NCBI GenBank assembly: GCA_902812365.1
Contig: CADDZC010000015.1
Location: 1-56,519 of the forward strand
Source of the DNA: Acidobacteriota bacterium
GTDB taxonomy: Bacteria; Acidobacteriota; Terriglobia; UBA7540
Length of the DNA stretch: 56,519 nt
Direction: 5' to 3'
The position numbers were made by a program, and so were the translations under genes. Shown here piece after piece: positions 14,155-17,562 of this stretch. Under the pieces are notes generated by a model. That model ran no database searches and was not told the DNA's origin. It saw only the letters and a program-made list of their open reading frames with translations. Every line of letters begins with the position of its first letter. Position 1 is the first letter of the stretch.

Positions 14155-14226
14155 CGGGCTCCCCATCAGTGCCCGCTGCCGGTTCAGGCGTTCGCCGCCG
14201 GGCGACAGCGATTGGCGCAGTGCCGT

Positions 14227-15441
14227 ATGCCATTATCTCCTTCGGCGAGGCCAGCCAAATCGTCCAATTCCACCCGCCCCAAGGTCATTTATACGGGTTT
14301 TGTCCTGACCGGCATGGTGACCACGCTGCTCGGCCCCATTCTGCCGCCTCTTGCGGTGCGCTGGTCCTTAACCGACGCTCAGGCCGGCTCCTTGTTCACC
14401 GCCCAGTTCGTGGGATCCACCCTCGGAGTTCTGCTGTCGGCGGCGATCCTCCCCAAGCTTGGCTTGGCAGCGTCGCTGCCGGCCGGGTATGCGGTGATGA
14501 GCCTCGGGGTGAGTGCTCTTAGCGCGAGCGCTTGGCCCAGCGGGCTGGTCTCAGTATTTGCTTACGGCCTCGGCCTCGGGATCGTGATTCCGGCCAGCAA
14601 TCTTCTGATTGCCGAGGCCAACCCCTCGCATCGAGCGGCTGAGCTGAACATCTTGAACTTAGCCTGGGGGCTGGGCGCTGTCGGCTGTCCCCCGTTCGTG
14701 GCAGTTCTGCTTGCCAGGACCGGGGGCACGGCCGGCGTTCTGCGCGCTCTGGCATTACCGCTGGCGATCGTTGCGACCGCTTTGCTCTTTCAGCCCCCCA
14801 CTAACCTGGGATTGACGGCGGTGGGCCGGGCGGTTTGGCCAGACTCAATCTTGCACGGCCGCTTCCTGGCCGTGCTGGCCACGATCTTCTTCCTATACGT
14901 CGGAACCGAAAACTCCCTCGCCGGTTGGATCGCTTCGTACGCGCGACGACTCAGTACTCCCCCGGGCCGGCTATGGGTGCTCATGCCTTCCTTCTTCTGG
15001 GCTTCCCTCTTGGCGGGTCGTGCCGTCGCGCCCGGCATCCTTCGCCGCGTCACGGAAGCGAAGCTCCTGGTGACGGGTCTAGCGGTGGCCGGGGTCGGTG
15101 TGGCCGCGCTGCTGGCTGGGAATGACGTGACCGCAATCGGCCTGGGCGTGTCGCTGGCCGGATTGGGTTTGGCGGGCGTATTTCCGATCGCCATCGCGAT
15201 GTTATCCGAGCATGGCGGGTCTTTGGCGCTGCGAACCACCGGCGTAGCCTTTGCGCTGGCCGGCCTGGGGGGTGCAACCCTGCCTTGGCTGGTCGGAGTG
15301 TTGTCGACGCGTTTCGGCGGCCTCAAGGCTGGTCTTGCCGTCCCTCTCGCCGCGATCGCAGCGCTGATGGTGTTGCAGCCCTATGCCTCGCTGCCAAAAA
15401 GCGCGACGGATCCTTCGAAAACTGGACCTGCCGACGCGTGA
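14227..15441 (+). CDS. MFS transporter
   Basis: About 404 residues with roughly twelve hydrophobic segments, beginning near residue 20 and ending near 390, in two six-helix halves. The character is that of the major facilitator superfamily, fucose-permease/YbjJ-like side, with Gly-rich helices. ATG 14227 is chosen; a TTG five codons earlier is possible. Coming just after the LacI regulator, it probably imports the mono- or oligosaccharide released by the neighbouring hydrolase. The substrate is not identifiable. It converges with the peroxiredoxin gene across 64 bp. Confidence 0.88.
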   Translation: MPLSPSARPAKSSNSTRPKVIYTGFVLTGMVTTLLGPILPPLAVRWSLTDAQAGSLFTAQFVGSTLGVLLSAAILPKLGLAASLPAGYAVMSLGVSALSASAWPSGLVSVFAYGLGLGIVIPASNLLIAEANPSHRAAELNILNLAWGLGAVGCPPFVAVLLARTGGTAGVLRALALPLAIVATALLFQPPTNLGLTAVGRAVWPDSILHGRFLAVLATIFFLYVGTENSLAGWIASYARRLSTPPGRLWVLMPSFFWASLLAGRAVAPGILRRVTEAKLLVTGLAVAGVGVAALLAGNDVTAIGLGVSLAGLGLAGVFPIAIAMLSEHGGSLALRTTGVAFALAGLGGATLPWLVGVLSTRFGGLKAGLAVPLAAIAALMVLQPYASLPKSATDPSKTGPADA

Positions 15442-15505: not shown

Positions 15506-15988
15506 CTAGCGGATGTTCTTCAGCACGGCCAGTATTTCGCCGACGTCTGGCACCTCCTTGAGCTCGTAAATCTTCGACCATGCGACCTTGCCCTGTTGAT
15601 CCACCACAAAAACCGCGCGATCGTTAATGAACGGCACCGAGTGTTTTGCCGGCGGAAAAATTCCGTAGGCCCCCGCGGTTCCGGCGTAAGGCCAGCGATC
15701 CGAGGCCAGCGGAAAGCTGAGACCGCCAAGAGATTTCTGGTAAGCCACGTGGCAGGGAACTGAATCGGTGTTGACGCCCACGACCTGGGCGTTCAAGCCG
15801 GCGAACTCCGCCAGATGGGCTTCGATCGCCGACAACTCATCCCGTCAGACCGGGGTGAAATCGAGCGCGTAAAAGCACACCACCACATTCTTTCCCCGCC
15901 AGCTTGACAGTTGGAACTCGCCCTGCGTCTCACCCGCAGCGGAGCTCAGCTTGAAGTCTGGAGCCACGTCACCTTTCGTTAAAGCCAT
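15506..15988 (-). CDS. Peroxiredoxin (AhpC/TSA), probable selenoprotein with in-frame TGA
   Basis: ATG 15988, after a GGGGGA ribosome-binding site, opens a peroxiredoxin frame that meets TGA at 15847-15845 and continues in the same frame to TAG at 15506. Reading the TGA as selenocysteine gives 160 residues, a normal length. The TGA is codon 48, in Phe-Thr-Pro-Val-[TGA]-Arg-Asp-Glu-Leu, exactly where AhpC/TSA proteins carry the peroxidatic cysteine. The Thr three residues before it is kept. The downstream half is intact, with a further Cys79 and a normal Trx-fold C-terminus. These proteins reduce hydroperoxides; Sec versions are an established selenoprotein family. A read-through-dead pseudogene is the alternative, but the single stop at the catalytic position and clean frame argue against it. 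No selA, selB or selC is visible in the window. Confidence 0.85.
15810..15844 (-). promoter_or_regulatory. Candidate bacterial SECIS element
   Basis: On the coding strand just after the TGA, GGATG (bases +3 to +7) can pair with CATCT (+28 to +32). Inside, TCG (+13 to +15) can pair with CGA (+21 to +23), leaving an apical loop GCGAT that starts with G at +16. Bacterial SECIS hairpins place a G-containing apical loop about 16-37 nt after UGA, so the position fits. The pairing is weak and was judged by eye only. Confidence 0.35.
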
Positions 15989-16272
15989 GAATCCCCCGGA
16001 TGTGTCAATTTGTCTGCGTCCGCCTGAATGAATGCGCACCCTGTCAGGCCCCTGCATTGTAGCCTGGGTCGAGGGTAAACGCCAAAACAGCGGGAATTGC
16101 CCCGGGACTGCCGCACCCGCCCGTCGTCCGGCGCAGAGCCCGAGGGTCACCGGCCGCCGTTCCGGAATCGTCGTCGAGGACAAATGATCCGCCGGCTTCC
16201 AGGCTTTGCCGTATAATAGCGCGTCCTAAAGGAAGATTCTTTTTGGACGAAACGCCCTTCCGAGGTCCCGAC

Positions 16273-17562
16273 ATGAACCGACGTCGATTTCTACAAACCG
16301 GTGCCGCCGCGAGCCTGGCTCTTAAGGGCTTTCCGGCGATTCTCGGTGACACGCCGCAAAGGTTTCGCACGGCCTTGATTGGTGCGGGATGGTGGGGCAT
16401 GAACATCGGCCATGTCGCGATGCAGTCGGGTGCCTCCAAAATCGTGGCCCTGTGCGACGTGGACGAGAACCAGTTGCGGCCGGCCGTGGAAAATGTAGAA
16501 AGACTTTCGGGCGACCGCCCGCGGGTTTACAAAGACTTTCGGGACTTGCTCGCCAAAGAAAAGCCCGATATCGCCATTGTCGCGACTCCTGACCATTGGC
16601 ATCCCCTCATCGCCATCGCGGCGGTCAAGGCCGGAGCTCATGTTTATGTGGAAAAGCCCGTCAGCCACACGATCCTGGAGGGCAAGGCGATGGTGAGGGC
16701 CGCCCGGGAATCCGATCGCGTGATGCAGGTGGATTTGTGGCGGCGTGTCTCCCCGGATCATGTCGCGGGTATGGAGTTTCTAAAATCCGGAAAGGCCGGC
16801 AAGATCGGCATGGTGCGCGCCTTTGTTCATTATCCAGGGGGACCGGGAGAGCCGACGCCGGATTCGGACCCGCCGCCCGGCCTCGACTGGGACCTGTGGT
16901 GCGGTCCCGCGCCCTACCGGAATTTTAACCGCGCCATTCACCCCAAAGGGTTTCGCCAGTTCCTCGAATACGCCAACGGGCAACTTGGTGACTGGGGCGT
17001 CCATTGGATGGACCAAATCCTATGGTGGACGGAGGAAAAATATCCGCGCAAGGTCTATTCGACCGGTGGACGTTGGATCAAACGCGACTCGACGAACGCC
17101 CCGGACACCCAAATCGTCGCCTTCGAGTTCGAGACGTTCACAGCGCACTGGGAGCATCGCCTCTACGCTGGCAACCGGGCGGAGAAAGCTTACGTGGGGT
17201 GCTATTTTTATGGAACGGAAGGTACGTTTCATATGGGGTGGACCGATGGCTGGACGTTTTACCCGGACACCGACAACAAGCCGCTGGTCCACATGGACGC
17301 CCATCTGGACGAGCCCGACGATCAGAACATCGCGCTGCTGTGGGCCAATTTTATTGACGCCATTCGCTCCCGCCAGCGTCCGGTGCGAGACATTGAGATC
17401 GGCCATCGTTCGACCAACATGAGCTTGCTAGGGATGCTCTCCCTCAAGCTCGGGCGCTCCATCGAATGGGATGGCGAGAAGGAAGAAGTGGTCGGCGACC
17501 CCGAGGCGAACAGGCTGCTCCGCCGCGAATACCGCAGCCCGTGGAAGTATCCGGAGGTGTGA
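16273..17562 (+). CDS. Tat-exported Gfo/Idh/MocA oxidoreductase
   Basis: This 429-residue protein begins with a twin-arginine-type leader (MNRRRFLQTG, then an Ala/Leu-rich stretch). A Rossmann NAD(P)-binding domain starts at about residue 34 with GAGWWGMN, and the family EKP motif follows at about 130. The C-terminal substrate-binding domain contains the conserved DWGVHWMDQ helix with its histidine. Family members oxidise sugars or inositols with a tightly bound cofactor, and glucose-fructose-oxidoreductase relatives work in the periplasm after Tat export. The specific sugar is unknown. ATG 16273 is used because it begins the Tat leader. A LolA-like gene follows after 30 bp. Confidence 0.9.
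   Translation: MNRRRFLQTGAAASLALKGFPAILGDTPQRFRTALIGAGWWGMNIGHVAMQSGASKIVALCDVDENQLRPAVENVERLSGDRPRVYKDFRDLLAKEKPDIAIVATPDHWHPLIAIAAVKAGAHVYVEKPVSHTILEGKAMVRAARESDRVMQVDLWRRVSPDHVAGMEFLKSGKAGKIGMVRAFVHYPGGPGEPTPDSDPPPGLDWDLWCGPAPYRNFNRAIHPKGFRQFLEYANGQLGDWGVHWMDQILWWTEEKYPRKVYSTGGRWIKRDSTNAPDTQIVAFEFETFTAHWEHRLYAGNRAEKAYVGCYFYGTEGTFHMGWTDGWTFYPDTDNKPLVHMDAHLDEPDDQNIALLWANFIDAIRSRQRPVRDIEIGHRSTNMSLLGMLSLKLGRSIEWDGEKEEVVGDPEANRLLRREYRSPWKYPEV

Follow-up and report, generated by a model that had tools for sequence, protein, structure and literature searches.

A Selenocysteine Peroxiredoxin Gene of an Acidobacterium with a Predicted SECIS Hairpin Distal to Its UGA Codon

Bacterial peroxiredoxins that carry selenocysteine (Sec) in a TxxU motif have long been known (PMC1088965, PMC1794560, PMC13188914), as an earlier note on this DNA pointed out, and four selenoproteins were counted in Acidobacteria in 2006 (PMC1794560). 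Published bacterial SECIS elements mostly place the loop 16–37 nt from the UGA (PMC13188914, PMC10778597). The acidobacterial gene described here shares with the known Sec peroxiredoxins (PMC13188914, PMC1794560, PMC1088965) the AhpC/TSA fold, a peroxidatic UGA (TPVU in this case), and the common occurrence of Cys homologues, but it belongs to a short AhpE-like subfamily, falls far below the PrxU model, and is accompanied by a distal SECIS-like hairpin, P2. Like elements that fit the bSECIS model (PMC13188914), P2 is a coding-region hairpin downstream of the UGA, with a 7-bp stem, a stable fold, and a small loop in which GG occupies the first two positions. In contrast to that model, its loop starts 59 nt after the UGA, outside the canonical 16–37 nt spacing, and a second conserved helix, P1, lies in between. 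Because TxxU Sec peroxiredoxins are already known, the protein alone belongs to a known kind, and the new part is the RNA, namely, the distal P2 with the intervening P1. No earlier account of a bacterial SECIS this far from the UGA, with a helix in between, turned up in our search of the open-access literature.

The window, that is, the whole stretch of 56,519 nucleotides that was analyzed, corresponds to contig C15 in a draft genome of 3.5 Mb and 123 contigs, 96.7% complete. The assembly, like those of its relatives, was probably derived from a metagenome, and those of its close relatives that have names belong to the Acidobacteriota (Terriglobia, subdivision 13). The Sec-peroxiredoxin gene, which encodes a short AhpE-like member of the AhpC/TSA family, occupies positions 15506–15988 on the minus strand when translated with TGA as U. 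A single frame had been proposed for it, and translation from the ATG at 15988 to the TAG stop ending at 15506 confirms that the sole internal stop is the TGA of codon 48 (15845–15847, minus strand), in the context FTPV-U-RDE. The Sec-containing product, MALTKGDVAPDFKLSS...YALDFTPVURDELSA..., has 160 residues. A candidate ribosome-binding site read from the sequence, GGGGGA (15992–15997, minus strand), lies 3 nt upstream of the ATG. It is flanked by a convergent MFS transporter gene (window positions 14212–15441) and a divergent GFO/IDH/MocA oxidoreductase gene (16243–17562), both on the plus strand. No redox partner gene is adjacent; the Sec-peroxiredoxin gene stands by itself.

We then compared the codon at this site in 116 homologues that cover it, searching for Cys or TGA as the earlier note had suggested. 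The codon is TGA in 77 of them and TGC or TGT in the other 39, with no other codon found. Some loci were retrieved from both of the collections used; the distinct homologues number 84 (57 TGA and 27 Cys). After near duplicates were dropped, the set comprised 53 Sec and 26 Cys genes that align without gaps from the site over the following ~80 nt. Their hosts are mostly Acidobacteriota and also include Nitrospirota, Chloroflexota, and Myxococcota; relatives were found in 41 of 61 genomes. Conservation is unbroken on either side of the TGA in relatives with up to 74% identity, in agreement with the proposal that the frame remains protein-like beyond it. A tree of 78 proteins indicates at least nine switches between Sec and Cys; an Acetoanaerobium plasmid match considered as an outgroup was a Cys form and not useful. 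One homologue (L056, on contig C20 of genome G013) has TGC at the active site, and at residue 100 a TAG stands where a Trp codon is otherwise conserved. A UAG-Sec reading was rejected on the basis of these positions, and the TAG is probably an assembly error or the mark of a broken or decaying gene.

The host genome contains selA (577 bits), selB (330 bits, together with the SelB winged-helix domains wing_2 and wing_3), selD (371 bits, itself with an in-frame TGA), and a tRNA-Sec with a UCA anticodon (70 bits), so that every component of the Sec machinery named for look-up is present. The tRNA-Sec also occurs in all 18 of the 18 high-quality genomes of the family. TGA terminates 9 of the 15 long window frames examined; UGA is thus an ordinary stop for neighboring genes, and a changed genetic code is not the explanation. 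With the Sec machinery in the same genome and only TGA, TGC, or TGT at the site, the selenoprotein reading of the earlier note stands: it is almost certain that the TGA of this gene encodes selenocysteine.

The read-through protein matches PF00578 (AhpC-TSA) with E = 1.6e-28 over residues 6–137 (profile 2–123 of 124). This match and the conserved sequence around the site bear out the claim that the TGA falls exactly at the AhpC/TSA peroxidatic position. An AlphaFold model built with an alignment of 26 relatives has a pLDDT of 95, and the top structures retrieved with it by Foldseek are peroxiredoxins (TM 0.85–0.90). Both the TPxxC(U) active site and the conserved Arg of AhpC/TSA peroxiredoxins are present, with T45, P46, residue 48, and R124 invariant or at least 90% conserved (alignments A1 and A4). 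The NCBIfam PrxU model (NF040737) gives 67 bits, below its curated cut-off of 270. The PDB sequence neighbors include 2-Cys peroxiredoxins and Mycobacterium tuberculosis AhpE (Rv2238c; PDB 4x0x, 1xxu), which is among the best matches (E ~2e-18), has a similar length, and aligns through the PLxSDxWP segment, but has Cys where the acidobacterial predicted peroxidase has Sec. When the acidobacterial model is compared by fold, the top-ranked chains are 2-Cys peroxiredoxins of the Prx1 type. The resolving Cys typical of 2-Cys peroxiredoxins is not conserved among the 53 Sec proteins, 23 of which have no Cys at all in the aligned part. Cys79 was ruled out as a conserved resolving residue, as this position is Ser in 38 of the 53 and Cys in 9. 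Because no resolving Cys is conserved, an external reductant would have to regenerate the Sec48 selenol, and the protein is likely a one-Sec peroxidase reduced by an external thiol.

Besides this gene, the host genome carries three further TGA selenoprotein genes. The first is a second Sec peroxiredoxin (L220, G000:C67:14934-16934, with relatives L203–L219), which has an FTGGU or FTPGU motif, a signal-peptide-like N-terminal extension, and a conventional SECIS, GGCGTATCAGGCTGATATCGCC, that hardly varies. The RNA model gives two matches ~600 bases apart in many relatives, which suggests tandem copies. A third peroxiredoxin, Bcp/PrxQ-like (L222, G000:C64:9635-10090), has TPGU, with TGA in most relatives in the family; its downstream RNA is conserved and unlike that of the other two peroxiredoxins. 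Finally, the in-frame TGA of selD (L024, G000:C1; KAAGUAAKL) is followed by a 10-bp hairpin.

Two helices follow the TGA of the C15 gene. Helix P1 (15797–15833, minus strand; arms 15833–15827 and 15803–15797), supported by covariation, starts 11 nt after the UGA and encloses 23 variable nt. Hairpin P2 (15774–15792, minus strand; arms 15792–15786 and 15780–15774, loop GGUCG at 15785–15781), supported by covariation and synonymous conservation, follows P1 after 4 nt. When the U of UGA is numbered 0, P1 pairs positions 14–20 with 44–50, and P2 pairs 55–61 with 67–73. The loop of P2, of the type A[GGUCG]U, begins at 60 rather than 59 nt in some relatives, and the hairpin folds with −13.1 kcal/mol when short flanks are included. 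Compared with shuffles of the window gene, the P1 region (15836–15795) has z = −2.62 and P2 has z = −3.07. The weak stem-loop previously placed 3–32 nt after the TGA did not survive this comparison: 15844–15813 folds with −8.1 kcal/mol at z = −0.24 against dinucleotide shuffles. It was rejected as the SECIS, being no better than shuffled sequence, and the conserved helices are P1 and P2.

Pairing in these helices separates Sec from Cys genes. The proportion of cells paired in the 53 Sec genes is 97.6% for P2, compared with 64% in the Cys genes, and 80% for P1, compared with 43%. Compensatory changes occur at six of the seven P1 pairs, and one P2 pair of the Sec genes is U-A in 30 sequences and C-G in 21. 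For P1 and P2 together, 88.9% of cells are paired in the Sec genes versus 33–47% in slid versions of the structure; two-sided changes are seen at 8 pairs, and five measures all exceed all 500 shuffles. In the Cys genes, 53.6% of cells are paired, and neither any measure nor covariation rises above the shuffles. Since the shuffles ignore relatedness, more weight falls on the tree and on the slid and Cys controls. P2 is intact in all 53 Sec genes and in 7 of 25 Cys rows. Across six supported independent pairs on the tree, P2 tracks Sec in 4.6 on average and the reverse never occurs, a small sample for which the sign test is borderline (median p 0.06). P1 is less uniform than P2, with at least five of seven pairs in the common register in 41 of the 53 Sec genes, and in several Sec genes of other lineages it is absent or in a shifted register.

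The one feature in the RNAalifold consensus of the 53 Sec sequences was a small hairpin where P2 lies, with a covariation term near nil; the helices were assessed instead by counting pairs on a stated structure. No matching family exists in Rfam. Our covariance model R1 detects the Sec homologues as well as homologous Cys genes and sister genes, so that R1 alone cannot separate the two SECIS types.

Synonymous codon identity provides a further view of these regions. In the Sec genes, it exceeds expectation at codons +5 (0.80 vs 0.32), +7, +15, and +19 to +23, with the strongest excess at +19 to +23 (GCC CAG GTC GTG GGC; 0.73–0.96 vs 0.31–0.79 expected). The excess in the Cys genes at those codons is far smaller or absent. 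In the P1 interior (codons +8 to +12), the Sec genes show identity at expectation. On the 5′ side, GTT is over-represented directly before the UGA of Sec genes (codon −1, window 15850–15848; identity 0.49 vs 0.31 expected) and not in Cys genes, while the window gene itself has GTC. A possible explanation would involve a 5′ context effect.

Two other genes of the same genome allow the loop of P2 to be compared with hairpins at conventional spacing. The selD hairpin, GAGUCCAA-GGAUU-UUGGACUC, has its loop 19 nt after the UGA. The sister peroxiredoxin (C67, FTGGU), which can be aligned across the site with the C15 gene, has the hairpin GGCGUAUCAGGCUGAUAUCGCC at a conventional distance, nearly invariant in ~15 genomes. 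The loop types are A[GGAUU]U in selD and A[GGC]U in the sister gene, and in all three hairpins, P2 included, the loop begins with GG and is closed by an A-U pair. P2 therefore looks like the SelB target of the C15 gene. The SECIS loop of Escherichia coli fdhF is similar, A[GGUC]U. Within the fdhF loop, G23 and U24 are required according to a review (PMC8659212).

We weighed these observations against other readings of the locus. A conventional proximal SECIS could lie within the P1 region, with P2 accessory or unrelated. Bacterial loops have been described at 16–37 nt (PMC13188914), the sister peroxiredoxin uses such a hairpin, and the window gene contains a 7-bp hairpin whose AGU loop starts 37 nt after the UGA. 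That hairpin is not conserved, however, and hairpins that follow the bSECIS rule at 16–37 nt occur in 12 of the 53 Sec genes (23%), close to the 18% found in synonymous shuffles, with loops that are unlike one another. Hairpins with a G in the loop at 50–70 nt occur in 47 of the 53 (39% in synonymous shuffles), and the excess synonymous conservation of the P2 loop and stem has no counterpart inside P1. We therefore regard a proximal SECIS as unlikely.

It is considerably less probable that P1 and P2 are kept for some other RNA function, such as slowing of the ribosome or a selenium-dependent mRNA level. While the evidence for the two helices is conservation, their loss follows the replacement of Sec by Cys, and the loop of P2 is of the type seen in the SECIS elements of selD and the sister gene. 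A sequencing error or pseudogene mutation, with a protein ending at residue 47, might be expected of a fragmented draft genome of probable metagenomic origin. Against this reading, which we consider extremely improbable, TGA recurs at the same codon in most homologues across many assemblies with Cys as the sole alternative, conservation extends to either side of it, and the Sec machinery is complete.

In the reading that we prefer and hold to be quite probable, UGA48 is decoded as Sec by the SelA, SelB, SelD, and tRNA-Sec of the host, with the distal P2 as the SECIS. The mRNA tunnel of the ribosome hides ~11 nt (PMC4513850), and the upper SECIS stem of E. coli begins 11 nt after the UGA (PMC8659212). 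P1, near the edge of the ribosome-hidden mRNA, would fold away 37 nt, leaving P2 near the ribosome entry when the UGA is in the A site, and SelB with GTP and Sec-tRNA would then bind the P2 loop and deliver Sec. Without the 37 P1-folded nucleotides, the P2 loop is ~22 nt from the UGA, inside the 16–37 nt range. On this basis, we infer that P2 is a SelB-binding SECIS displaced distally and that P1 brings it close, keeping it within reach of the ribosome. As P1 is less uniform than P2, we are less certain of its bridging role than of P2. The selenol of Sec48 would then reduce peroxide and be regenerated by the external reductant.

Judged from these comparative data, the Sec peroxiredoxins of Acidobacteriota, and also those of Nitrospirota, Chloroflexota, and Myxococcota, fairly probably share a new class of bacterial SECIS, in which a SelB-binding hairpin ~60 nt after the UGA is combined with an additional conserved helix that reduces the effective distance. 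Bacterial SECIS elements are assumed to sit directly after the UGA, and search programs rely on a 16–37 nt spacing, a model from which, as reviews concede, some selenoprotein genes depart. Natural controls are available in the Sec/Cys gene pairs and in the sister gene of the same genome with its conventional spacing. If the proposed class is real, it would raise the question of how SelB reaches the UGA from a greater distance, and hairpins placed distally behind a bridging helix would form a concrete class, open to testing, that might account for genes missed by such programs and show annotators where to search.
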